Shown here: positions 5,734 to 64,000 of the stretch, piece after piece
Numbering within the stretch: the stretch's first letter is position 1
How the letters are laid out: the number at the start of each line of letters is the position of its first letter
From: a virus
Length of the DNA: 64,000 nt
Strand: one strand, 5' to 3'
Virus record (IMG/VR): IMGVR_UViG_3300049491_000829
Span: 1-64,000 of that record
Translations under genes and position numbers: made by a program
The notes under the pieces: model-generated
Databases searched by the model: none
The model's input: only the letters and a program-made list of their open reading frames with translations
Told to the model about the DNA's origin: nothing

Positions 5734-6531
5734 ATGGATGCTGTTTTTTTGTTAGCGCAAAAGCATTGGCGAATACTTTCAGTTTTAATCCTTTGGTTAA
5801 ACCTTGCATTTTTTCTACATTTAATTGGTAAACGTCTGGAAAAAATCAACAGCGACAAGTTAATTCTATCTTGGTTGTCTGAGATTGGATCGGACATCAG
5901 GCTATACGGAATTGTCACGTCGTTAAGTTTGACTATCGCTTATGCTTCAAGCGTATACAGTAATTATCTTGCTTGGCTGTCCAGACTAAGTTCAGTGCTA
6001 GCAAAAGTCAGCGCATTATTTTGGCTCGTACTCGTCGCGATCGCATTCACTGAAACTGCTGCGCCGCATTTTTCAAGAATTATTACTCGCAGTCAGATGA
6101 ATCAAATTGACAAACGGAACGCACTAACTCTCATTCCTTTATCTGCAAGTAGCGCAAAAGTAATAATTTATATTCTTGCTTTTATATTTGGATTGGGAGC
6201 ATTCGGGGTTGATATATCCCCATTGCTGAATATGAGTACGGTCGCGATCGCAATATTTGGCTTTGCAGGTGCAGAAACTTTTAAAGATATATTAGCCTCG
6301 TTAAAAATTTTTATTGACAGACTTTACTACGTCGGTTCAATTGTAGAAGTTAGTACAGATGGACTATGCAAATACGAGGGACAGTTAAAAGGCACAATTA
6401 CTAAAATTACACTGTTTAATACAACTATTCAATTAGAAAAGTCAGCAACTTTTAGTAAGTCGCTGACAGTAGCAAACGGTGCAATCCGAAGTATTATTGT
6501 ATATCAAGAAAATATCAAGTCACGTGAATAG
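5734..6531 (+). CDS. MscS-type mechanosensitive ion channel
   Basis: 265 residues with hydrophobic segments near 13-32, 58-75, 88-106, 137-157 and 163-185. The last one (VDISPLLNMSTVAIAIFGFAG) followed by ETFKDILASLKIFIDRLYYVGSIVEV and GTITKITLFNTTI is the typical pore helix TM3 and start of the beta domain of the MscS family (compare GxxG pore packing, then GDxVE and TTxR). The family forms tension-gated channels in the inner membrane. The C-terminal alpha/beta domain is short, so this is a small member. It is on the plus strand inside a minus-strand block, with a 12-base tail-to-tail overlap with the methyltransferase, and is probably accessory cargo. Confidence 0.75.
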   Translation: MDAVFLLAQKHWRILSVLILWLNLAFFLHLIGKRLEKINSDKLILSWLSEIGSDIRLYGIVTSLSLTIAYASSVYSNYLAWLSRLSSVLAKVSALFWLVLVAIAFTETAAPHFSRIITRSQMNQIDKRNALTLIPLSASSAKVIIYILAFIFGLGAFGVDISPLLNMSTVAIAIFGFAGAETFKDILASLKIFIDRLYYVGSIVEVSTDGLCKYEGQLKGTITKITLFNTTIQLEKSATFSKSLTVANGAIRSIIVYQENIKSRE

Positions 6532-7509
6532 CATGATGTGTTGCAAGACTGCGCGATACAAATTAACTGGTACTGCATTACCTAGCGCTGCACCATCTAC
6601 TAAGTTTATTCCTGAGAATTGATACCAATTAGGCAAAGTTTGCAACCCTGCAACATCCTGAATCGACAGCGATCGCGTTATGCCATTTACCCAAATATCT
6701 AAGAAATTTTGACGACTAGCACCTTTACCATCACTAAACATAGATTTGGTAATTGTAAAACACGGCTCAAATTGATGCCGAATTTTTATTGTGTCGTTAC
6801 GCTTACCAATTCGTTGAATCAAAAACGCTTGAGTTGTCGGATACATTTGCAATTCAACGTCAATATCTTTTTGCTGAGTCGCAGTCAGCTTAGATAGTTT
6901 CATTTGCGCTATGCGATCGCCTAATACGCTCCACCAGCCCAAACGAGGACGACGCGCAGGCAATCCCAACACTCGTCCCTCTCTGTCCGCAATTACGATC
7001 ATTCTCTCTCTGTCCTGCGGTACATCATAATCATGGGCGTTTGCGATGCCAAATGTCACCCCATAGCCCAGTTCAATCAAGGCAGTTTTAATCATTTCCC
7101 AAGACTGCGATCGCGCATAGCCTGGGACTTGCTCTAGCGTGAAAAACCTTGGACGCTTTAATTGCAAAAATCTGATTGTTGAATACGCCATTGCAAAGTC
7201 CCGTTCTAACTCCATCGCATCAGTTTTTGCAGCAGAATAATTTTGACAAGGCAGCGAGATATGCCCAATCATTGGCTCATTTTCAATAAATCTAAAATCC
7301 AATCTCGCCGCATCTTGAATACTGCCTCGAAATAAATTGCAGCCGTATTGCTTAAAGTTTTTATCGTGCAAGTCCGCGATCGCGCTACTCAACGCTGGAT
7401 TTTCTGGATCGAACTCCACTGCATTTGTATAGTGCAATCCTTCTTCAATAAAGGCTGCACCAATTCCACCACCACCACTGCAAAAATCTATAACACTACT
7501 ATTTTGCAT
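6520..7509 (-). CDS. DNA (cytosine-5) methyltransferase
   Basis: 329 residues. Motif I is DFCSGGGGIG (about 8-17), the catalytic Cys88 lies in LPCQNYS (canonical PPCQ, first Pro replaced by Leu), motif VI is TLEQVPG with Glu126, motif VIII is QDRER (165-169), and motif X is LGNAVPVNL with the usual Asn311. It should transfer a methyl group from SAM to cytosine C5 in DNA; the target is not readable from sequence. It is a single gene with its own promoter of the shared TATGTC-N6-GACATA type just upstream (7533-7561), so it is probably an early or lysogenic gene rather than part of the virion block. Contrast with the second enzyme at 24382, which lacks the motif X Asn. Confidence 0.88.
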   Translation of the reverse strand: MQNSSVIDFCSGGGGIGAAFIEEGLHYTNAVEFDPENPALSSAIADLHDKNFKQYGCNLFRGSIQDAARLDFRFIENEPMIGHISLPCQNYSAAKTDAMELERDFAMAYSTIRFLQLKRPRFFTLEQVPGYARSQSWEMIKTALIELGYGVTFGIANAHDYDVPQDRERMIVIADREGRVLGLPARRPRLGWWSVLGDRIAQMKLSKLTATQQKDIDVELQMYPTTQAFLIQRIGKRNDTIKIRHQFEPCFTITKSMFSDGKGASRQNFLDIWVNGITRSLSIQDVAGLQTLPNWYQFSGINLVDGAALGNAVPVNLYRAVLQHIMLFT

Positions 7510-23157: not shown

Positions 23158-23907
23158 TCATTTGATAGCAATCCACGCAGCAAATTGACCCCAACGCCAG
23201 ATGCATTCACTTTGCACAAATCCTGTATATCTTAAACTTTCTTCATTTTGAAAAGCAGTCCAAGGCACTAGAACCCCTTCTAAGCTTAAGCGTTTGCGCT
23301 GTATCTCATATTCTGTGTAGCCATTTTCAAATTTTAAAGAATAATAAACCTTTGTCAAAATATCATCAATATCAGCCGTTTTTGCTAAAGTTTTCTCTAC
23401 AAGGATAAAAGCGCCGCCACGATTCAAGCTTCGATAAATCCGGCGCAATAATTGCAAGCGATACTCCACAGGGATGAATTGCAGCGTCAGGACAGACATT
23501 ACAACGCTATTCTGCCCTTGGGGAAAATCAACCCGCAAATCTAAATTATCAATGCTAACGCGATCGCGTACATCTTTGAATCGCTCCTGACATACTTTTA
23601 TCATTGCGTCGCTACGATCTATCATCTTATATCTAATATCGGGTTGCAATCGCGACAGCAATCTAGCGATTGTCTCACCCCTGCTACAACCTAAGTCTAA
23701 AATTGCACCCTTGTTTGTCGCAAAATTAACAGCGAATTCTACGACAAGCGATCGCATCACATCATAATCAGGGATCGAACGCTGTAACATCTCTTCAAAT
23801 ACATCCGCTACTTGCTCGTTAAACTCCCAATTACTTGGCATCGCGATCGCTTCAGGAGTATTTTGCAGTTGGGGAAACGTTTCCCTAAGTGGATTCTCGT
23901 TTTGCAT
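23158..23907 (-). CDS. CmoA-like carboxy-SAM synthase
   Basis: 249 residues, the same length as E. coli CmoA (247), and similar along the whole chain: FNEQVADVFEEMLQRSIPDY (29-48) against CmoA [20 protein letters not shown], SAM motif I LDLGCSRG (70-77), LTLQFIPVEYRLQLL, NRGGAFILVEK, and ENGYTEYEIQRKR against ANGYSELEISQKR. The Arg of that last motif (Arg206, CmoA Arg199) binds the carboxylate of carboxy-SAM in CmoA, as I recall. CmoA turns SAM and prephenate into carboxy-SAM, normally for CmoB to modify tRNA U34. No CmoB is seen here; instead the gene closes an operon with a C5 DNA methyltransferase. Overlaps the previous gene by 23 bases. It could also be a plain methyltransferase or act on tRNA. 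Confidence 0.78.
   Translation of the reverse strand: MQNENPLRETFPQLQNTPEAIAMPSNWEFNEQVADVFEEMLQRSIPDYDVMRSLVVEFAVNFATNKGAILDLGCSRGETIARLLSRLQPDIRYKMIDRSDAMIKVCQERFKDVRDRVSIDNLDLRVDFPQGQNSVVMSVLTLQFIPVEYRLQLLRRIYRSLNRGGAFILVEKTLAKTADIDDILTKVYYSLKFENGYTEYEIQRKRLSLEGVLVPWTAFQNEESLRYTGFVQSECIWRWGQFAAWIAIK
23868..23891. repeat. Dispersed palindrome, copy 11 (coding, degenerate)
   Basis: A diverged copy with centre ACGT. It lies across the overlap of two genes and encodes the PLRETFPQL segment near the N-terminus of the CmoA-like protein. Confidence 0.7.
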
Positions 23908-24382
23908 GATTTAAAATTAGCTTTGGCTTAGGAACAATTGTTAGATAGCGATCGCTGATTACAGCAGTGACAGTTTGCTTTGATTTGAGCTTTGCACGAA
24001 AATAACCTTTGATAAATAAAGCAAAAGGCTTAACATTCTTTGTTTGCGAAACAATCTTTATAGTGACTTGGTTTCGCAACTTACTTTTAGCAACAAGTTC
24101 GCCAGCTATTAAAAATGTATTTACTTTAATACTAGGATGCGGACTGTCTGCGTCTGCAATAGTCCTGCAAACAAACAATGTTAGCTCTCCTGTCTGTGGA
24201 TTTGTACGAGGATAGACTGTAAGTCTTAGTAGTTTTGTACTATCTACTTTTAAAAAGGCGCGTTTTGCAGATTGAACGAAAATAATAGGGATTGAATAAG
24301 TGTCAGTTATAGCAGCGTACCCAGTTTCAAAAGGAATAATGTTAGCAAGGATAACGCCTACAGCTTGAGAGTAAAATTCCAT
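23885..24382 (-). CDS. Hypothetical protein between methyltransferase and CmoA-like gene
   Basis: 165 residues, no known family. Predicted beta-rich: LLRLTVYPRTNPQTGELTLF, KVNTFLIAGELVAKS, VTIKIVSQ and KQTVTAVISDRYLTI. The start codon shares a base with the methyltransferase stop (TAATG) and its end overlaps the CmoA-like gene by 23 bases, so all three are made from one message. The conserved position suggests a functional partner of the modification system (for example an adaptor or nucleic-acid-binding subunit), but this is a guess. Confidence 0.65.
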   Translation of the reverse strand: MEFYSQAVGVILANIIPFETGYAAITDTYSIPIIFVQSAKRAFLKVDSTKLLRLTVYPRTNPQTGELTLFVCRTIADADSPHPSIKVNTFLIAGELVAKSKLRNQVTIKIVSQTKNVKPFALFIKGYFRAKLKSKQTVTAVISDRYLTIVPKPKLILNHAKREST

Positions 24383-25383
24383 TAGTTAGTTTGTTGTAAC
24401 AGTCTTTTACACAAGCTACCAGCGATCGCGGACATTGCCAACGGTGGGACAGCGCGTCCTAGACGTTCCCAATTCTCTGCATCTGTTCCACCTAGATAAA
24501 AATCGTCAGGGAAGGAACATATTTTTTTGAGTTCGGGAATTGTGAACTGCCTTGTTTCTCCTGTATCTGATTTAATCCAACCACCACCAGAAAAATATGC
24601 GGATTCAAAGCGACCGTAATCATGTGCCATTATTGTAGGAGAAGGGCGATCGCTCGATTTATAATTAAATGCAGAACCACTGTGTTTTACGTAGCGGATA
24701 TGAGGTAATACGTCTTTCACGCTGTAAGTATAAGGAAGAGGACGCGGGAAAACAGGCTGTATCTTCAAATCCTTGCGGATACCCATGAAGAAAACACGAT
24801 CGCGCATCTGCGGTACTCTCAAATACTGACAATCAATCTTGCTACAAATAACACTGTATCCACAATCTTTCAAAGCTTGGACAATCTCAACAAAATAGCC
24901 TTTTGCTTTCCCTTTTACTAGACCTGCAACATTTTCAGCAATGAACCCCTTTGGCTGTAACTCTTTGAGTATTCGCGAGTATTCAAAAAATAAATCATCT
25001 GACTTTTGAGATTTTTTGCCTGAGTAATGTCTTTTTTTGCCCCAACCTTTATCACCTGAACCTGCGCTAGAGAAACTAGTACAAGGTGGAGAGCCATCTA
25101 AAATATCGATTTTGCCCACTGCTGCAACAATATCTTTTGCTGCAATATCTCGCACATCTCGCGTATCTAGTTTTGTTGTTGAATGATTTGCTTGGTAACA
25201 TGCGATCGCTTCTTCAACAAATTCAGCAGCATACACAACTTCACATCCAGCCAATTTGTAACCCAAACTGCTACCACCGCAGCCTGAGAACAAAGAAGCT
25301 ACTTTAATCCCATTTTTAGGAATTAATGCAATTTCCGCCATGCTTGGCATATAGTAATCAGGTTTATCTTTTTTATAGTTCAT
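24382..25383 (-). CDS. C5-cytosine DNA methyltransferase with Asn-to-Arg change in motif X (possible carboxymethyltransferase)
   Basis: 333 residues with a complete catalytic set: motif I SLFSGCGGSSLG (30-41), catalytic Cys101 in GSPPCTSF, motif VI AENVAG (149-154), QMRDR (192-196), a target-recognition region, then RPSPTIMAH and a CSFPDDF segment. Motif X reads WERLGRAVPPLAM: Arg310 replaces the near-universal Asn of the GN(S/A)V motif, which touches the methionine part of SAM (Asn304 in M.HhaI). In engineered M.MpeI, Lys or Arg at the corresponding Asn allows use of carboxy-SAM, as I recall. A CmoA-like gene lies two genes downstream in the same operon. The likely product is 5-carboxymethylcytosine or, conservatively, 5-methylcytosine. 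Confidence 0.88.
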   Translation of the reverse strand: MNYKKDKPDYYMPSMAEIALIPKNGIKVASLFSGCGGSSLGYKLAGCEVVYAAEFVEEAIACYQANHSTTKLDTRDVRDIAAKDIVAAVGKIDILDGSPPCTSFSSAGSGDKGWGKKRHYSGKKSQKSDDLFFEYSRILKELQPKGFIAENVAGLVKGKAKGYFVEIVQALKDCGYSVICSKIDCQYLRVPQMRDRVFFMGIRKDLKIQPVFPRPLPYTYSVKDVLPHIRYVKHSGSAFNYKSSDRPSPTIMAHDYGRFESAYFSGGGWIKSDTGETRQFTIPELKKICSFPDDFYLGGTDAENWERLGRAVPPLAMSAIAGSLCKRLLQQTN

Positions 25384-25705
25384 TGTTAAACCCCAGATAA
25401 GTCATCGCTTCAAAACCTTTTACACGTTCGTTCGTAATAATAAATTGCTCTTCATATTCGTAGTATCCTTCTTCTAATTCAAATTCTGTCGGGTATCTAA
25501 CCCAGACGTGCTTGATGTCTAAAGGGGAAAAAGGGACTGAGTTATCCTCTTCGTCCTCCTCCTCGCAATAGTCCGAATAATCCGCGATCGCGTAACGGAA
25601 AAACTTATCAATATCTACGTGTCCTTTTGCGTAATAACCCATCAGACTATTACAATCACATTCTCGGACTTCGCACATCTCAAATTCACGCTGCAAATTT
25701 ACCAT
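25373..25705 (-). CDS. Hypothetical acidic protein in the modification operon
   Basis: 110 residues, strongly acidic in the middle (YCEEEDEEDN) and near the C-terminus (ELEEGYYEYEEQF). An N-terminal CEVRECDC cluster could bind metal. Overlaps the methyltransferase start by 11 bases. The charge pattern is like that of DNA-mimic proteins, but no family is recognised and that idea is speculative. Confidence 0.55.
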   Translation of the reverse strand: MVNLQREFEMCEVRECDCNSLMGYYAKGHVDIDKFFRYAIADYSDYCEEEDEEDNSVPFSPLDIKHVWVRYPTEFELEEGYYEYEEQFIITNERVKGFEAMTYLGFNNEL

Positions 25706-25722
25706 TTTTCAATATCCTTGTT

Positions 25723-26229
25723 TTACTTCTTTGGAGTCGTAAATTGATATTTGCACTTGGGACAAGTCACATCAAGCTCAGACGCGATCGCATCCGGGTC
25801 AATTTCTGTGAAGTCTTGCGGGAATTCTTCACTCATCAATGCATCAATCTCATCTTGAGAAAATCCAGTCAATTCTAAATCAGCTTCCAAATCAATCAAA
25901 GATTGAAGCTCAAATTTTAGCGCTTCATCATCCCAAGGCGATTGCGCTAACTTATTGTCAGAGATTCGCAATTGTGTTTTTTGCGCGTCCGATAATCCTG
26001 TACGGACAATTACAGCAACTTCTTCCAACTCAGCAACGATCGCAGCTTCTCTCCTGCAATGCCCTTTTAAAATGTTGTTGTTCTCATCAACAACAATCGG
26101 TACATCAAAACCAAGCGTTTTCATCACTTCCGCTAACTTCTCAATCTGCTGTCTGCTATGGATTTTAGCGTTTTGCTCGTAAGGGATTAGAGCGTTTGGC
26201 GATCGCATCTCAATATTTAAATTACTCAA
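25723..26229 (-). CDS. ParB-like (Sulfiredoxin/ParB-fold) protein with zinc knuckle
   Basis: 168 residues. The N-terminal ParB/Srx fold is shown by a LIPYEQNAKIHS region, VPIVVDENNNILKGHCRREA with the GHCRR motif (56-60) and ISDNKLAQSPWDDE. Such domains usually precede or accompany phage DNA methylases. The C-terminus ends with Cys156-x2-Cys159, half a zinc site. It starts two bases after the winged-helix gene ends. Role probably DNA binding or NTP hydrolysis in the modification system; not a partition protein in this context. Confidence 0.72.
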   Translation of the reverse strand: MSNLNIEMRSPNALIPYEQNAKIHSRQQIEKLAEVMKTLGFDVPIVVDENNNILKGHCRREAAIVAELEEVAVIVRTGLSDAQKTQLRISDNKLAQSPWDDEALKFELQSLIDLEADLELTGFSQDEIDALMSEEFPQDFTEIDPDAIASELDVTCPKCKYQFTTPKK

Positions 26230-26230
26230 A

Positions 26231-26893
26231 TTACTCAGTCCTTGTTGGTAAACTGTAATATTTTGTATGATACCTTTTCTGCTCGATCCAAGCGTTGATT
26301 AAACCTTGTTGATGCATTTTTGAACATATCTTACGAATTGTTGTTTTATTTAACTTTGCTTCATTCGCTAATTCTTCAGTCGTCAAAGGTCTTTTGTACT
26401 CAGACAGCAAATTTAATATTATTTTTTCAGTTTCTAAACCAAATTTATCTATTAACTTTTCTTTTTCTCCCGCAAGACAATAATACAATTTTGAACCCCT
26501 GTCACGTCGATAACTCTCAATTTTACCTGCTGCAATCAACGCATCACAATGAAATAAAGCTGTTTGGGGCGATCGCTCAATAGCAGGAGCAATATCATAA
26601 ACACTCAAAGGTTCTTTAGCAAGTAATCCTAATATTATTGCGCGATGTTTCTCGTTAACAAAAGGTCTAACAGCTTCGCGCTTTTGCTTGACTTTCCTGC
26701 GTTTAATCACTTCTGGCTTTTCACGCTGTTCCTGGACAAGCTTAGTTTTGTCAATGCCTCGACTAATGATTAAAAAATTTCCACAGGCAGAGCAAAAGTT
26801 ATTACTTTCTTCCTCGCAAATACAGTAAATTTGGCGAAATTTTAAGCATCGACCGCAGTATTTAAAAATAGATTTTTCCCAAACAAGTTGCAT
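26231..26893 (-). CDS. Zinc-ribbon and winged-helix regulator, first gene of the modification operon
   Basis: 220 residues. Six cysteines (13, 16, 24, 26, 34, 37) form an N-terminal zinc site. A basic linker (about 60-75, IKRRKVKQKR) leads to two winged helices: residues about 83-140 (IILGLLAKEPLSVYDIAPAI) and about 148-215 (LTTEELANEAKLNKTTIRKI). It has an AAGGGAAG ribosome site and heads a minus-strand operon ending with the CmoA-like gene. It may regulate the operon or the element. Confidence 0.68.
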   Translation of the reverse strand: MQLVWEKSIFKYCGRCLKFRQIYCICEEESNNFCSACGNFLIISRGIDKTKLVQEQREKPEVIKRRKVKQKREAVRPFVNEKHRAIILGLLAKEPLSVYDIAPAIERSPQTALFHCDALIAAGKIESYRRDRGSKLYYCLAGEKEKLIDKFGLETEKIILNLLSEYKRPLTTEELANEAKLNKTTIRKICSKMHQQGLINAWIEQKRYHTKYYSLPTRTE

Positions 26894-27012: not shown

Positions 27013-29502
27013 TTAAACAAGGGCGATCGCTTGTTCTTTAGCTAGTGCTAATGTATCAATTCCTTCTTTAATAATTTCATTATCGATTGTGATTCTAAAT
27101 TTGCCTCCTTTAATCTTAGTAAGTATAATTTCTTTCTTTCTAAAGATTGACACTGCACCTGATTTAGTTGGTAGCCATTCGATTTCTTCTTCCTCTTCCT
27201 GTTCCTCTATTCCATCAATCGCCCAAACGGCTAAACGACAATCCCCATATTCATCAAATTTCTCGTAAAAATTGCGCCAGTTGTTGCCAATGTACAGCAA
27301 CACTACGTCAAAGTTTGGATTGTCAAGATTATCATTGTTTTTCTTAAGCTCTTCGCGATATTTACGATGCTCAGGAGGACAGGAAAACGCGACACGTCCT
27401 GTCATGTCGCACGTTATTTCAAACAAACGTTTTGCGATCGCGCCTGAGCCTTTGTTTGACTTTAATCCTTGTTTTGCAAGGACTACACCCTCTTTGATGT
27501 TATTTTTACCAACTTGCTCTTCAATCTTTTTGAGCCAAGCTTCCGGGTCCGAGTAAGGAATATTAGCAAAAAATGTGATAGGACGATTGTCATCTGGGAT
27601 TTGCCAGTCTTGGGTTAAACCATTTAATTCTTCAGTTAATCCTGTGAAATGATGCTTTGCAGCTATGCGTTTACCAGGGTCAGCACAAGGATCAATGTCA
27701 ATCTCTCCTAATACTTCGGCAATTGTTTCAACTAACCAATCAGGGGTGTACCATTGATCCGACATCAACGGTATATGCTTTTCTATATCTAGTCTTTGCT
27801 GTTCCGGATAAATAAGCGATCGCCCGGTTTGAATAGTCTCCGCGAGTGCGACTGTTTTGCCATCAACAGGCTGACTAAGTTGTTGAGTTTGTTGCTGAGT
27901 AGCTTGTTGTTGGGGAATACTTGCAGCTTTCCCAATTGCGCCTTGTTTAGATGGCGTACTTTGTTTCTCAGAAAATAATTTGCTTAATGCTTTTTCTACG
28001 CTTGTAGCTTCACCACGTAGAATCAAATCTGCAACTTGCATTGCAACTTTAGCGCCGTAGTTTGGATTTTGGTAAACTTCTTCGCGCAACTTGCGAACTG
28101 TCGCGACCATTTTGTCATTTTTATTAAATAGTTCGCGCAATTTAATCCGATTAGCGTCAGGAAGTGTGTCAATCCAATCAAGCAGCTTGCTAGCTTCATA
28201 AGCTGTTTTCCCAGAGAGTCCGGAACCGCGTGCGGCTTCATCCCACGCTTTGCCAGATTGGGACGCATCTTTTTTTGACACTCTTGCTTGACGATCGCGA
28301 GCTAAAGTCGCGCAATATTGCTTACGCGCAGCAATTTCCCGGATTTTCATCTCTTGATTGCGATCGCGTGTCTTGTCATTTGTATCAAGCAGCGCTTCCA
28401 CTACTTCCGCTATCGAACCAAACGGACGAACTTCAACAGGTATTGTAGAAATATTTTCAATTACAGCAGCTTGAGTACGTCTGTTCCCTGCAACTACTTC
28501 TAAATCGTAAACATTCTCATCATTTTTGACTAAGCCAACAAGAACTCGTTGCAGAATAACACCCCCGTTATTTTGAAGACTTTCTTGAATATTTGTAATA
28601 TCCTCGCCATCTCGACCAGGGTGGTAAACTTCTCTATTAACATCCAGAAATGGCAACAAATGCGGCGGATAATCCCCAATAAATCCTGACTCTAGCTCTT
28701 TTGTGCGTGCATGATACTCGCGACACACAGCGCTACGCACCGAATGAAAATATTGTCCGCGTTCTGTTGCGTACAGAATTTCAGTACCACCATCTTTCAT
28801 TGTCGCTTCTTGTCCAGCTATTAACAAAGCTGGTATTTCTTGCTCCAAAAAACCAACAAAGCCGCCTTGATAGAACTGATCGACGCGAACAATATAGCCT
28901 TTACGTGAATAACTAAAAATTGTCCGAAATTCTTCATCCTCGTCGCTTGCCTTCCATAAAGCTTCTCCTAACTCTGTTTTATCTTCTTCAATACTTTCTG
29001 CAACTTTTGCAGATTCACTACTTGTATCAACAATCTCAGACATTTCATCATCCTTAATAACTTGAAATTCTTCTATAACTGACTCTAAACCATTTTCAAT
29101 AATTGCAATTTTCCCAGGGAAAATCAGTCTTTCAACCGTAAAAATCCCTTTTTCTGTCTGGACGCGATCGCCCAATTCAACATTTAGTATGTTCAGTTTA
29201 TCATCATATTGTAAATCCAACAGCTTAACAGCCTGCTCGTTGCCACTCTGACTACGGACTATAACAGACCCGTCGTTGGATATATCGACAATTCGGACAA
29301 TTTCAGCATCGCCTTGTTTTGCTACGCAAGCGCCAAACAAATCAAAACCCGCATCTGTCAAACGGAAGAAGTTAGCAAGGTTAGATTCACGCTTTTCTAT
29401 GATTACCTGTTGTTTTGTGTGTACCTTTGAGCCTAGCTTCATATCCTTAAGTTTGTCGCGATCGCTCTCTAGTTCCCTTAACGCGCTTTTTAGTGTTTCC
29501 AT
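27013..29502 (-). CDS. ParB-like / N6-adenine DNA methyltransferase (Dam-type) fusion
   Basis: 829 residues. Residues about 50-150 and 195-260 are beta-rich, unknown. A ParB-like domain spans about 285-510, with the AGNRRTQAA motif (338-346) and a helix-turn-helix part around 425-445. After a Gln-rich linker (525-545) comes a phage Dam-like (pfam05869-type) methyltransferase: DQWYTPDW (582-589), IDIDPCADPG (601-610) and ANIPYSDP (646-653), the last being an NPPY motif with Pro to Ile. Predicted to methylate adenine N6 and bind DNA through ParB. It is driven by an operator-bearing promoter. The Ile change may lower or alter activity. Confidence 0.82.
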   Translation of the reverse strand: METLKSALRELESDRDKLKDMKLGSKVHTKQQVIIEKRESNLANFFRLTDAGFDLFGACVAKQGDAEIVRIVDISNDGSVIVRSQSGNEQAVKLLDLQYDDKLNILNVELGDRVQTEKGIFTVERLIFPGKIAIIENGLESVIEEFQVIKDDEMSEIVDTSSESAKVAESIEEDKTELGEALWKASDEDEEFRTIFSYSRKGYIVRVDQFYQGGFVGFLEQEIPALLIAGQEATMKDGGTEILYATERGQYFHSVRSAVCREYHARTKELESGFIGDYPPHLLPFLDVNREVYHPGRDGEDITNIQESLQNNGGVILQRVLVGLVKNDENVYDLEVVAGNRRTQAAVIENISTIPVEVRPFGSIAEVVEALLDTNDKTRDRNQEMKIREIAARKQYCATLARDRQARVSKKDASQSGKAWDEAARGSGLSGKTAYEASKLLDWIDTLPDANRIKLRELFNKNDKMVATVRKLREEVYQNPNYGAKVAMQVADLILRGEATSVEKALSKLFSEKQSTPSKQGAIGKAASIPQQQATQQQTQQLSQPVDGKTVALAETIQTGRSLIYPEQQRLDIEKHIPLMSDQWYTPDWLVETIAEVLGEIDIDPCADPGKRIAAKHHFTGLTEELNGLTQDWQIPDDNRPITFFANIPYSDPEAWLKKIEEQVGKNNIKEGVVLAKQGLKSNKGSGAIAKRLFEITCDMTGRVAFSCPPEHRKYREELKKNNDNLDNPNFDVVLLYIGNNWRNFYEKFDEYGDCRLAVWAIDGIEEQEEEEEIEWLPTKSGAVSIFRKKEIILTKIKGGKFRITIDNEIIKEGIDTLALAKEQAIALV

Positions 29503-31371: not shown

Positions 31372-33000
31372 CTAAACGAATGCTTTTATTTCGTGTCGAT
31401 ATTCCGCAAACTCCGGGCGATCGCTTATTATCAAATCTCTCAATTCTTCAACCCAGTTAGGTCGTCGATCGAAGACTTGCGTCATCGGAAGGTGTTTGAG
31501 ATTGTTGTCTATGAAGAACTGTTTTTTATACGCTCTAAAAATATCGCTTCTCTCTAGCTCCGAAAACATTACTTTGTCCGCTTGTTGATTTAAAGCGTCT
31601 GCAACTTTCATCGTCGCAACTTCTTTAGGTAGTGCGTCTCGACTAGTCGCGCTGACTAATGCTGGATTGCTTTCTATCATTGCATTCCACTCAATAAACA
31701 ACTCGTCGCGTCGTTGGTTATTGTATTTTGCAATTGAAATATGCTTCCGTATCTGAGTTAGCGCAGAACCAACTGTCAAAGACTTGTAAAACTTTGTTGC
31801 AGAAAGTCTTTGACACATCCAGTCTTCAAACCCAGCGTGAAAATGATAGCGATCGCCTTCTATATCCCAAGGAAATTGTTCGCTCCCGTCTAAATTGCGT
31901 TTTACGCCCGGTTCATTTACGCGGATGTACTTTGCAGCATTCTCGACAGTTAAAGTCGCTTGCACGCGATTTTGAACGGGCTGCGCGGCGACTGCGGAAG
32001 ATTGACCCTCTAGGCAAATATTGTGGTCAACATAAGAATTCTCAATCTTAGTAACAGGCGTAGTCGCGCAGTCTATGACTTCTTCTTTTATTTCTATATT
32101 CTGCTGTACCTCCCATTCCTGGAGTTCGTTCTGTATTTTATCCCAATCAACATTTTCAAAATTGAAAGATTCCTCATCCCCCCCCAAGGCTGTTTCTTTT
32201 ATTTCCAAATCCACGGCTGTTAATTCAAAATTCCTGAACACGACAAATCCAGCAGTTGAAGCAACCCCCCCAAGGCTGTTCTCTTCGTTTTTTCCAGCCT
32301 TCGCGTTTAATAAAGATTGGGGGGGTATAGATAATATATTTTTTGTATTATCTTTTAAATCTTTTACATATATAGTCAGTTTGGTCACGTTCTGCAAACT
32401 AGTTTGGTCACGTTCTGCAAACTCAGTTTGGTCACGTTCTGCAAACTCAGTTTGGTCACGTTCTGCAAACTCAGTTTGGTCACGTTCTGCAAACTCAGTT
32501 TGGTCACGTTCTGCAAACTCAGCGCTGTCTGGCATCTCTACAACAAAACGAGCGCGAGGGCTTTTACGTTTTGAACGAGGACGATCGCTCTTAAAAGTTC
32601 CGCCTAGAATCGCGTCAATCTTCTCGTCTAGCGCTTCATAATTAACTTTGTAATGCAAAGTAGCAGGCGAACCCCTTAATACTGTCTCAATCACTCCTAG
32701 TTCAATCAAATGATTTCTATTTTTTTCAATTTCGTAGCGACTCAAAGATGTTTTTTCTTCCCACTCACGAACTGATTTGCTAAACCAGCCATTTTTACCA
32801 GCTTCGAGCGATCGCTGACTCCAGTAATCCGCTTGGGAAAGCAGTAAACCCCCACATGCACAACCCGCGATCGTTGCAAATATCCGAGAAAAAGCAATTA
32901 CCCCTGTTAGTTTTTGATATTTGCTCTTCCCTTTTTTCTCGTTTCCAGCTACACTAGGTTCAACTTGACTAGACGATTCGACTTGAGTTGAATATTTCAC
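31372..33000 (-). CDS. Replication initiator (O-like) with internal iterons
   Basis: 542 residues. The N-terminal winged helix (about 45-122: GLLLSQADYWSQR, GWFSKSVREWEEKTSLSRYE, LIELGVIETV) is the type found in phage and plasmid replication initiators and DnaD/O-like proteins. Residues 161-200 are five copies of the octapeptide EFAERDQT, followed by SLQNVTKL, which is a sixth DNA copy read in another frame. The rest is a variable linker and a C-terminal helical domain with WMCQRLSATKFYKSL. In lambda the origin iterons lie inside gene O; here the DNA repeats and an adjacent AT-rich tract point to the same design. No promoter of the shared type is clear; a possible TTGCAC/TATAAC promoter lies near 33207-33240. 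Confidence 0.72.
   Translation of the reverse strand: MKYSTQVESSSQVEPSVAGNEKKGKSKYQKLTGVIAFSRIFATIAGCACGGLLLSQADYWSQRSLEAGKNGWFSKSVREWEEKTSLSRYEIEKNRNHLIELGVIETVLRGSPATLHYKVNYEALDEKIDAILGGTFKSDRPRSKRKSPRARFVVEMPDSAEFAERDQTEFAERDQTEFAERDQTEFAERDQTEFAERDQTSLQNVTKLTIYVKDLKDNTKNILSIPPQSLLNAKAGKNEENSLGGVASTAGFVVFRNFELTAVDLEIKETALGGDEESFNFENVDWDKIQNELQEWEVQQNIEIKEEVIDCATTPVTKIENSYVDHNICLEGQSSAVAAQPVQNRVQATLTVENAAKYIRVNEPGVKRNLDGSEQFPWDIEGDRYHFHAGFEDWMCQRLSATKFYKSLTVGSALTQIRKHISIAKYNNQRRDELFIEWNAMIESNPALVSATSRDALPKEVATMKVADALNQQADKVMFSELERSDIFRAYKKQFFIDNNLKHLPMTQVFDRRPNWVEELRDLIISDRPEFAEYRHEIKAFV
32325..32377. other. AT-rich tract, candidate DNA-unwinding element
   Basis: About 50 bases of almost pure A/T (from TATAGATAATATATTTT through CTTTTACATATATAG) directly beside the iteron block inside the initiator gene. 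This is the usual arrangement of an origin's unwinding element. Confidence 0.55.
32378..32519. repeat. Iteron array inside the initiator gene (candidate origin)
   Basis: Six copies of a 23-bp core AGTTTG-N11-CAAACT (itself with inverted ends), five at 24-bp spacing and the leftmost at 23 bp. The one-base offset puts that copy in another reading frame, so its coding differs (SLQNVTKL instead of EFAERDQT). That the DNA is conserved while the reading frame changes suggests the DNA is the functional repeat. Confidence 0.85.
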
Positions 33001-42990: not shown

Positions 42991-43761
42991 CTAAGGTGCT
43001 AATCTAGCTTTCCCGTAACGCTTTGCTTTGTACCACGCTGCAAGCTCTGGTGCAACCTTCTCGAATTCAGAAAACAACAAAGACGCGAGTATTTGGATTT
43101 CTCGCTCTGAGTCTGTTTTTGTTCTCTGATCGAGCAAATGCCATAAACCCTCTACAGTAGTAAAAATATCAAAAGGTTGCCTGTAACAAAATGGCAAAAA
43201 CTCTCGTGCCATTTCAAAGGGCATGTTCAAAATCTCGATATCGTGCTTGTATTGCAAACAAGCATCGCGACACTGAGCGTATCTTCTCCTTTGCATTGCT
43301 TGCGTCCAATTACATTTTTTACCAGCGCGATCGCTGTATATCCCTTCAGGACGCACGTAAAAAGCTTTTGCAACTTCTAAATCACCGTTTGCAACATCAA
43401 CAAACTTTTTCCCCGTGTATCGCATCGAAGTAACTAGAAATGCGCTGTCACGATGTCTTGTCGCTTGCTGCATAACGCTGTGAGGGAAACCATAGCATTT
43501 AAAGCTGATGAAAGCTGCATTTAAAACACTGAAATGTTCAACATTCAATTGATGTTTAACAATTGCGTCACCGCAGCTTTCATTGCTTAAACCCGCAGTA
43601 TTTGGATCGAACTCATCGCTAAAATACGAATCGGGTTTGTCACAAACACAAGTATGCTGCCCCTTCCAAATAGCAGACTGAATCTGCGGGGATGTTCCAT
43701 CAATATCCACAAATACCTTAAACTGCAAGTCGTTGTCTTCAAAATAGTCTGAGCCTGACAT
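42991..43761 (-). CDS. thyX: FAD-dependent thymidylate synthase ThyX
   Basis: 256 residues. The ThyX signature is TRHRDSAFLVTSMRYTG (101-117), with RHR 102-104, Ser112 and Arg114-Tyr115. C-terminal FLPFCYRQPFDIFTTVEGLW and EREIQILA segments fit the dUMP-binding part. It makes dTMP from dUMP using FAD, NADPH and methylene-tetrahydrofolate, supplying thymidine for phage DNA. Single minus-strand gene in a plus-strand region, with a shared terminator. Confidence 0.85.
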   Translation of the reverse strand: MSGSDYFEDNDLQFKVFVDIDGTSPQIQSAIWKGQHTCVCDKPDSYFSDEFDPNTAGLSNESCGDAIVKHQLNVEHFSVLNAAFISFKCYGFPHSVMQQATRHRDSAFLVTSMRYTGKKFVDVANGDLEVAKAFYVRPEGIYSDRAGKKCNWTQAMQRRRYAQCRDACLQYKHDIEILNMPFEMAREFLPFCYRQPFDIFTTVEGLWHLLDQRTKTDSEREIQILASLLFSEFEKVAPELAAWYKAKRYGKARLAP

Positions 43762-46854: not shown

Positions 46855-47160
46855 ATGGAAAGCAAAAAAGAAGAAGTTATTAAGTTCTGGAAAAGCGGCA
46901 AAACCAGGCAAGAGATAAAGGAAATGTTGGGTATCTCTCTAAAAACAATTTCAATTTATCTCAATAGCGATCGCGAGTACAGGCAAATTAAGGATAGAGA
47001 GAGAATTGCAAGGGAATGTTTGTACGAGGAAATATTTGAGATTTGGCGATCGCAGTCGAAGAAAAATATTTCCAAAATAGCTCGCATATTTAATTTATCA
47101 AGGCAACGAACCCAGCAAATCTTAGGAAGATACAAGGAGTACAGAGATTATGGAGATTAA
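46855..47160 (+). CDS. Helix-turn-helix protein
   Basis: 101 residues with two helix-turn-helix units: SGKTRQEIKEMLGISLKTIS (14-33) and KNISKIARIFNLSRQRTQQI (68-87), as in resolvase or sigma region 4 folds. Overlaps the AlkB-like gene by 11 bases. Likely regulates the local unit. Confidence 0.65.
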   Translation: MESKKEEVIKFWKSGKTRQEIKEMLGISLKTISIYLNSDREYRQIKDRERIARECLYEEIFEIWRSQSKKNISKIARIFNLSRQRTQQILGRYKEYRDYGD

Positions 47161-47809
47161 CTTATTTCCTCAAACGCGAAGTCACGTAGAAATTTATCCA
47201 GGGTGCTGGCATCTAGTTGACTTGCTTAGTCCTAATTGCCAACAGTTTCTAGTCGAAAGCTGTAGGGTTTGGGGAAAAGGAAGAATGAAGACTTGGGAGA
47301 CTTCACCTGGTAAGTTGATGAATCATCCCTTTTTCTGTGTTGGGCACAATTGGAAGCCGTATGAGTATTACAAAGGAGATGTACAATTTCCTGGACAATT
47401 GCAGATGATGTGGAGCGCGTTGTTGAGGCAATGTCCCGACTTGGAAGTAAGAAAATACTTGATTGATGCACATAATCCCGATACTGCGATCGTTAATTGG
47501 TATCCACCTGATTCTTCGCTTGCAATGCACGTCGATAAAAGCGAAGATTTGGAGTTACAACAGCAAGGTAGCCCAATTGTGACGATCGCTCTAGGGGCAA
47601 ACGCAACAGTCAAAATAGGCGGATTTAACAAGTTGGAAAATGTAAAATCAAAATCAGTAATCATGCGATCGGGCGACGTTCTTCTAATGTATGGCGAATC
47701 TCGCACACGGTTGCACAGTGTCGCAAAAATTCACGAGAATAGCGAACCTGTTGATTTGCTGCAAACATCTGGCAGAATATCAGTAACAATGAGAAGGGCA
47801 AAACTATGA
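47150..47809 (+). CDS. AlkB-like Fe(II)/2-oxoglutarate dioxygenase
   Basis: 219 residues with AAGGAG upstream. Iron ligands His127 and Asp129 in NWYPPDSSLAMHVDKSED, His189 in TRLHSV, and 2-oxoglutarate ligands Arg209 and Arg215 in GRISVTMRR (AlkB RxNxTxR with N to S). AlkB enzymes oxidise and remove alkyl groups from DNA or RNA bases. In a genome with several DNA methyltransferases it could repair alkylation or edit the modification. Followed by two coupled small genes. Confidence 0.8.
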   Translation: MEINLFPQTRSHVEIYPGCWHLVDLLSPNCQQFLVESCRVWGKGRMKTWETSPGKLMNHPFFCVGHNWKPYEYYKGDVQFPGQLQMMWSALLRQCPDLEVRKYLIDAHNPDTAIVNWYPPDSSLAMHVDKSEDLELQQQGSPIVTIALGANATVKIGGFNKLENVKSKSVIMRSGDVLLMYGESRTRLHSVAKIHENSEPVDLLQTSGRISVTMRRAKL

Positions 47810-63476: not shown

Positions 63477-63854
63477 ATGCACGATTCAATATTTTTAAAC
63501 ACCCAGCAAGCTACTAATTACGAGTTAATCAAAGAAGACGGACTAATCGTTGGCAGCGCGATCGCGATTGAATTTGTAATTCATCCAGAAGAATTTGACT
63601 ACTTTGTCGTTATCCAAAATCTTCACATCAATCCGCAGTTTACAAGACAAGGGTATGCAAGCGCACTTGTCAAGAAAATAATTCGAGACAATCAATCAGC
63701 AATAATTTGTCTCGAATGCAAAGCTGATAAGCAGTGCAAAAATCATCTTGACGACGAGCAATTATATCAATGGTATTTGCGATCGGGGTTCGTAAATAGC
63801 AGTCCATTCCATGAAGGCGATCGCTGGATGCATCGTCCTGCTAAATCGTTTTAA
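63477..63854 (+). CDS. GNAT-family N-acetyltransferase
   Basis: 125 residues. FVVIQNLHINPQFTRQGYAS, with the acetyl-CoA-binding Q/RxxGxA pattern RQGYAS, followed by ALVKKII and a C-terminal QLYQWYLRSGF segment. Acetylates an unknown amine substrate. Single plus-strand gene next to the head block. Confidence 0.72.
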   Translation: MHDSIFLNTQQATNYELIKEDGLIVGSAIAIEFVIHPEEFDYFVVIQNLHINPQFTRQGYASALVKKIIRDNQSAIICLECKADKQCKNHLDDEQLYQWYLRSGFVNSSPFHEGDRWMHRPAKSF

Positions 63855-63892
63855 GTTTTGCAAAGTCCTTGCAATGCAAACTTTTAAGGACT

Positions 63893-64000
63893 CAGTTTGG
63901 TCACGTTCTGCAAACTGAGTTTGGTCACGTTCTGCAAACTCAGTTTGGTCACGTTCTGCAAACTCAGTTTGGTCACGTTCTGCAAACTCAGTTTGGTCAC
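63893..64000. repeat. Second iteron block, identical unit to the initiator-gene array
   Basis: Four and a half copies of the same AGTTTG-N11-CAAACT core at 24-bp spacing, running off the window. On the minus strand it can be read in FAERDQT or SLQNVTKLS frames, so it may be the end of a gene beyond the edge, or an intergenic incompatibility/handcuffing block. Confidence 0.85.

Follow-up and report, generated by a model that had tools for sequence, protein, structure and literature searches.

Does a viral operon that pairs a CmoA-like gene with an unusual cytosine C5 methyltransferase serve to carboxymethylate DNA and, if so, what base does it leave behind? The operon lies in a 64,000-nucleotide stretch (positions 1 to 64,000 of the 64,125-base IMG/VR record IMGVR_UViG_3300049491_000829; hereafter "the window"), where a first-pass annotation had read the two genes as a natural DNA carboxymethylation system. 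Judging from the sequence, we consider it very probable that this is a CmoA/CmoX cytosine carboxymethylation operon carried by a cyanobacterial phage, probably a phage-plasmid, and that bare 5-carboxymethylcytosine is its likeliest product.

That the system might be of a kind not yet described is ruled out by the work of Yang et al. (PMC12783734, Nat Commun, December 2025), who analyzed CmoA-CmoX-CmoY of Synechococcus phage S-B43 by biochemistry and structure. In that phage, CmoA makes carboxy-S-adenosylmethionine (carboxy-SAM), CmoX makes 5-carboxymethylcytosine at GC, and CmoY amidates the product with glycine (PMC12783734). Arg350 of the S-B43 CmoX (SpCmoX) replaces Asn304 of M.HhaI and touches the carboxymethyl group; the wild-type enzyme accepts carboxy-SAM as its sole cofactor and its product shields DNA from HhaI (PMC12783734). 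The candidates listed in the same study comprise 5,615 CmoX, 4,257 CmoA, 2,251 ligases and 1,660 ParBc proteins, the latter being frequent but not universal neighbours of CmoX. The kind of system, the arginine, its link to CmoA, the link to ParB and the frequent absence of a recognised ligase are therefore already in print (PMC12783734), and the carboxymethylation system as an idea is no longer new. Our reading of the literature, mostly open-access, found no natural DNA carboxymethylation system beyond that of Yang et al.

The predicted CmoX and CmoA enzymes

The genes of the locus occupy the minus strand from 23158 to 26229 in the transcription order ParB-like gene, 110-amino-acid (aa) open reading frame (ORF), C5 enzyme (CmoX), 165-aa ORF and CmoA. 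The C5 gene and the 165-aa ORF overlap by a single base, common to the stop codon of the former and the ATG of the latter, and the CmoA start lies inside the 165-aa ORF. Coordinates and reading frames had been correctly assigned at first pass for both the C5 gene (24382-25383, minus strand, 333 aa) and the CmoA gene (23158-23907, minus strand, 249 aa). The third ORF between them (23885-24382, minus strand, 165 aa) and the upstream ParB-like gene are absent from that annotation.

Comparison of the C5 enzyme, a predicted DNA cytosine C5-carboxymethyltransferase, with PDB sequences gave as best match 8YF3, the structure of CmoX with carboxy-SAM (E-value 1.4e-55), followed by M.HaeIII at 1.2e-25; at 1.4e-55, a chance match is not at issue. 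A structural model built from 40 sequences, with a predicted local distance difference test score (pLDDT) of 92, also had 8YF3 as top fold match (E 1.3e-26). The window enzyme and SpCmoX are 40% identical in the alignment. The adenosine contacts are kept (F32, E54, F55 and D76 in the window; F25, E47, F48 and D69 in SpCmoX), as is the SPPC motif with the catalytic cysteine (S98-C101, the nucleophile being Cys101; S95-C98 in SpCmoX). The arginine in motif X noticed at first pass (ERLGRAVPP, Arg310) aligns with SpCmoX R350, according to Yang et al. the counterpart of M.HhaI Asn304 (PMC12783734), so that its suspected correspondence to Asn304 is borne out. A precedent of a different sort, compared here by its description, is M.MpeI N374K: there too, replacing the motif X asparagine by a basic residue enables the use of carboxy-SAM (PMC12783734), but the enzyme is engineered and its target is CG.

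Residues 21-249 of the window CmoA match structures 1im8 (E 9e-33) and 4gek (1.1e-31), and TIGR00740 is its best NCBIfam family. Its Arg206 aligns with Arg199 of Escherichia coli CmoA, an equivalence resting on a presumed 14-residue offset of the 4gek chain. E. coli Arg199 forms a salt bridge with the carboxylate (PMC3663124). The first-pass annotation had taken this arginine as a mark of carboxy-SAM binding. The residue is in place but is not diagnostic: the corresponding position in 91 CmoX-linked CmoAs is Arg in 22 and Glu in 51, and SpCmoA, which is active, has Glu there by alignment. Because of this distribution, phage CmoAs can probably be active without an arginine at this position.

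The likeness to S-B43 thus comprises a CmoX with SPPC and motif X arginine, an adjacent CmoA and the same cofactor contacts. The window differs in lacking CmoY (the S-B43 order being CmoA-CmoY-CmoX), in having the ParB-like gene and the 165-aa ORF, and in representing a probable phage-plasmid rather than a 214 kilobase (kb) phage. The tight operon with its adjacent CmoA, the choice of 8YF3 as best relative and the identity of cofactor and catalytic residues favour carboxymethylation. By homology, CmoA would convert S-adenosylmethionine (SAM) and prephenate into carboxy-SAM. Cys101 of CmoX would then attack C6 of cytosine, and the carboxymethyl group would move from carboxy-SAM to C5. Arg310, by pairing with the carboxylate, would cause carboxy-SAM to be used instead of SAM, as shown for SpCmoX, whose mapped cofactor and catalytic residues are identical here. 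This is in essence the pathway proposed at first pass, and it is supported by the chemistry proven for S-B43 (PMC12783734) together with the shared cofactor residues. The modified DNA would be shielded from restriction, as the SpCmoX product is from HhaI. A GC target like that of SpCmoX would be a guess for the window enzyme.

Motif X, CmoA and the ParB-like gene

We examined 160 related loci, namely the best 80 of at least 558 IMG/VR stretches and the best 80 of 242 genome loci, retrieved with a profile made from an alignment of five Arg-type enzymes. CmoA was called with phmmer (E<=0.01) within the fetched DNA. Among the IMG/VR loci, CmoA accompanies 67 of 69 enzymes with Arg and none of the 11 with another residue (Fisher test, 7e-12); among the genome loci the figures are 19/22 and 1/58 (3e-14), relatedness being ignored in both tests. 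The sole non-Arg locus with CmoA (L116) has a broken CmoX frame in which motif X is unreadable. The possibility, raised at first pass, that a motif X arginine is a common variant without CmoA neighbours is not borne out by this co-occurrence in the loci examined.

A tree was made with 162 of 165 CmoX rows, three being left out for an unalignable motif X; 11 of the 162 are unscored for CmoA because their contigs end too soon. The motif X arginine needs four changes on this tree. Three independent Arg/non-Arg pairs lie on well-supported branches, and in these CmoA goes the same way as the arginine in 2.9 of 3 on average and the opposite way in none. The tree thereby offers a simple check of the published idea, motif X residue and CmoA presence switching together in three countable, well-supported cases. 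Thirteen Asn rows form a clade nested among Arg rows (support 80), which makes a joint loss of Arg and CmoA in this clade likely, though not proven.

The ParB-like (ParBc) gene, upstream of CmoX, behaves differently. It encodes a 168-aa protein (25723-26229, minus strand, listed start TTG) that matches PF02195 at 9.3e-5, below the cut-off, and ParB-like PHROG families at E-values down to 9e-46. On the same three pairs, a ParB-like gene goes the same way as the arginine in 0.5, the other way in 1.1 and shows no difference in 1.4. By plain counts from one phmmer query, it is found at 60/69 Arg and 7/11 non-Arg loci in IMG/VR and at 10/22 and 45/58, respectively, in genomes. Since motif X and CmoA switch together on the tree and the ParB-like neighbour does not follow, these data suggest that the ParB-like protein serves the C5-enzyme lineage in general, which it probably assists, and not carboxy-SAM chemistry.

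Two further observations concern this enzyme lineage. Forty C5 enzymes among the genome loci L118-L164, many of them from Clostridia, form one clade in which the motif X asparagine is replaced by Met (GMSVPP); within the fetched DNA, a ParB-like gene is present in 30/40 and CmoA in 0/40. Separately, natural fusions occur on bacterial contigs, CmoA-CmoX in Reichenbachiella faecimaris and CmoY-CmoX in Bradyrhizobium jicamae (L139:5062-7386 and L140:4987-7125), and these count in favour of carboxymethylation.

A branch without a ligase

The 64,125-base record contains no PF00733 (Asn-synthase domain) and no PF13537 (glutaminase domain). A CmoY profile from 40 trimmed matches found nothing in the window or in Scytonema plasmid2 (see below) up to an E-value of 1, and yielded no additional CmoY loci among those scanned. 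Of the 36 loci that combine Arg and CmoA and are flanked on either side by 4 kb or more, 16 have CmoY and 20, the window among them, lack it. As no CmoY is encoded, bare 5-carboxymethylcytosine would most likely be the end product.

The nearest relatives, among the best 80 of 242 genome loci, are in Scytonema sp. NIES-4073 plasmid2 (AP018265), Brasilonema UFV-L1 and Scytonema RU_4_4 (64% CmoX identity, clade support 99). Plasmid2 is a complete circle of 76,644 bases whose genes include those for a tail sheath and for partition; it matches 20 of 69 window ORFs (the 69 being chosen from a list of 95), and its CmoA is 56% identical to that of the window. The sister loci share the ParB-CmoX-CmoA order of the window and plasmid2 likewise has no CmoY; PF00733 is absent from this plasmid (contig C3), all eight matches of that genome being on contig C1. 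They differ in that CmoX and CmoA overlap directly: the 165-aa ORF and the 110-aa ORF (25373-25705, minus strand, lying between the ParB-like gene and CmoX and overlapping the CmoX start) have no counterpart in any of the three. In RU_4_4 (L087), the CmoX frame is also broken. No DNA-level matches to window positions 15001-40000 were found in phages or plasmids, and a search of viral contigs gave no close relatives of CmoX. In the cyanobacterial phylum, CmoA is found in 20/386 genomes at E<=1e-10; for 12 of the 20 the match is stronger still (E<1e-26), the plasmid2 copy (G001) being one of them. Given this rarity, the element will usually have to supply the cofactor synthase itself.

Pseudomonas phage PaBG offers another comparison. 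Its cluster (ParB-CmoX-CmoA-150 aa-asparagine synthase) has the same ParB-CmoX-CmoA order and a CmoX 48% identical to that of the window, but retains an asparagine-synthase-like ligase. BLASTP detected no relation between the 150-aa protein of PaBG and the 165-aa protein of the window. As a side observation, genes of the uracil-DNA glycosylase superfamily lie in or overlap the CmoX-CmoA gap of two ligase-free loci out of eight gaps examined (L055:4085-4906 and L084:7370-7864).

The 165-aa ORF

The ORF that overlaps both CmoX and CmoA has no match in Pfam or PHROGs and no convincing one in NCBIfam. Searches returned no phage match better than an E-value of 6, no plasmid match, PDB matches at chance level only (best 0.22) and no close relatives in viral contigs or genomes. 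A structure model from the single sequence was uninformative (pLDDT 34). Weak matches are found in cyanobacteria, the best at 5.7e-6 and 8.2e-6 (per-genome E-values, 386 genomes searched); ten of the 386 have one at a per-genome E<=0.01, although chance probably accounts for several. One relative (L168) belongs to a family found in 64/146 sampled genomes at 1e-8, for which there is no Pfam model; its own PDB matches are weak (menin, best 0.042). The window protein thus appears to be a divergent member of a cyanobacterial family. In view of its relatives in cyanobacterial genomes and its absence from the sister operons, it is probably a captured host-type protein that would act as a local accessory and not as a required step. 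Its candidacy as a replacement ligase was rejected, as it belongs to no known family, has no useful phage, plasmid or PDB match and is absent from the sister loci.

Alternative interpretations

Several observations weigh against the carboxymethylation reading or soften the evidence for it. The window CmoA scores 166.2 bits on TIGR00740, under the curated cut-off of 193.3, although the curation range may not reach phage CmoAs. The frequency of Arg among the loci is biased because the search alignment held only Arg-type enzymes. Five Arg loci have no CmoA: three of these end within 1.3 kb downstream, while L127 has about 6 kb on each side. At L058, one of the 67, CmoA appears only at a looser cut-off. 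Three pairs are too few to reach 0.05 in a sign test (median p 0.25). Finally, a ligase could be missed because the virus record may be incomplete, and the host genomes of the sister loci encode PF00733 proteins, so that host enzymes could tailor the base.

The last two points bear on the alternative that fares best, in which cytosine is carboxymethylated as proposed but something takes the place of CmoY and then tailors the carboxyl group. Candidates would be the 165-aa protein, an amide ligase of the host and a gene elsewhere on the element that escaped recognition. Yang et al. describe several clusters of ligases for which different amines are predicted (PMC12783734), and the 165-aa gene is physically tied to both CmoX and CmoA by its overlaps. 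Yet the absence of this gene from all three sister operons and its scattered relatives in cyanobacterial genomes indicate that it is not bound to the pathway, and 20 of 36 well-covered loci do without CmoY. We regard such tailoring as possible but rather unlikely.

Very unlikely, in our judgment, is a reading in which the C5 enzyme simply methylates cytosine with SAM, yielding 5-methylcytosine, while CmoA serves cmo5U (5-carboxymethoxyuridine) modification of tRNA. The enzyme does have the C5 methyltransferase fold, and the HaeIII and HhaI methylases come close behind 8YF3 in comparisons with the CmoX model, with similar template modelling (TM) scores. Moreover, PF08003, which we take to be the CmoB family, has partial matches in the host genomes of the three sister loci (4.9e-9 at best, with some above the family cut-off). 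These matches, however, span approximately 85-175 of 315 positions and resemble general methyltransferases; the window record itself has no PF08003 match, so that the CmoB partner for tRNA is not seen on the element. The presence of the motif X arginine, its co-occurrence with CmoA across loci and the exclusive use of carboxy-SAM by wild-type SpCmoX (PMC12783734) also argue against this view. Least probable of all is that the operon is decaying or silent. The broken CmoX frames of L087 and L116 provide a precedent, but the intact window frames with their overlapping starts and the retention of the mapped active-site residues speak against it.

The element, its other genes and its host

The operon resides on an element whose record encodes a terminase, a tail sheath and a partition protein and contains two arrays of a 24-nucleotide repeat; the sister plasmid is circular. 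The partition protein, tail sheath and repeat arrays make it probable that the element is a phage-plasmid of cyanobacteria. The same repeat, possibly replication iterons, occupies 32376-32522, inside a 542-aa gene (31372-33000), and 63890-64000, where the array reaches the window end, 125 bases before the end of the record.

Adjoining the ParB-like gene is a gene for a 220-aa winged-helix protein (26231-26893, minus strand). Sister loci L085 and L086 have similar-sized genes at this position, whose products showed no sequence match to the window protein. Further on, a syntenic neighbour (27013-29502, minus strand) encodes an 829-aa protein with ParB-like and phage Dam (PF05869) domains, 32% identical to a plasmid2 protein. 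Elsewhere in the window are a ThyX-type thymidylate synthase (42991-43761, minus strand, PF02511), a 125-aa ORF (63477-63854, plus strand) that looks GNAT acetyltransferase-like by eye, and a 2-oxoglutarate-Fe(II) oxygenase (47150-47809, plus strand) with a match at 6.9e-27 to PF13532, presumably an AlkB-like family, for which a role in DNA repair or base modification is possible. Plasmid2 encodes an HNH endonuclease annotated mcrA (L165:47644-48393). This may be a modification-dependent nuclease, and the plasmid that encodes it probably modifies its own DNA.

As the first-pass annotation had pointed out, a second C5 cytosine methyltransferase outside the operon (6520-7509, minus strand) has the ordinary motif X asparagine (LGNAVP) and provides an internal contrast. 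It is 40% identical to the second C5 enzyme of plasmid2. We considered it as a host-type methyltransferase of CGATCG, the HIP1 core, and dropped this idea because matches at 1e-30 occur in only 7/148 genomes of the order, whereas CGATCG methyltransferases are reported as widespread (PMC4390886). HIP1 (GCGATCGC), a cyanobacterial mark (PMC4390886), occurs 180 times against 0.97 expected; plasmid2 has only 36 sites in 76.6 kb. HIP1 contains 9% of the GC dinucleotides of the element. In Synechocystis, the first cytosine of CGATCG within HIP1 is methylated (PMC6604393). Because this cytosine follows G in HIP1, a CmoX with a GC target would be in competition for it.

Implications

The pathway itself being published, what this case adds is a branch without a ligase, carried by filamentous cyanobacteria on probable phage-plasmids. 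Since Scytonema sp. NIES-4073 is in culture and contains a complete sister plasmid, the modified base can be sought without a phage plaque system. We tentatively suggest, while holding it doubtful, that modification in this phage-plasmid clade ends with bare 5-carboxymethylcytosine, which would not serve as a handle for further change, and that during lysogeny, with the element in its plasmid state, CmoX may modify the host chromosome as well. If true, this would give a bacterium with 5-carboxymethylcytosine in its own chromosome. Should the target be GC, the CmoX mark would be predicted to fall on the very HIP1 cytosine that host CGATCG methyltransferases methylate, and the two marks would compete.

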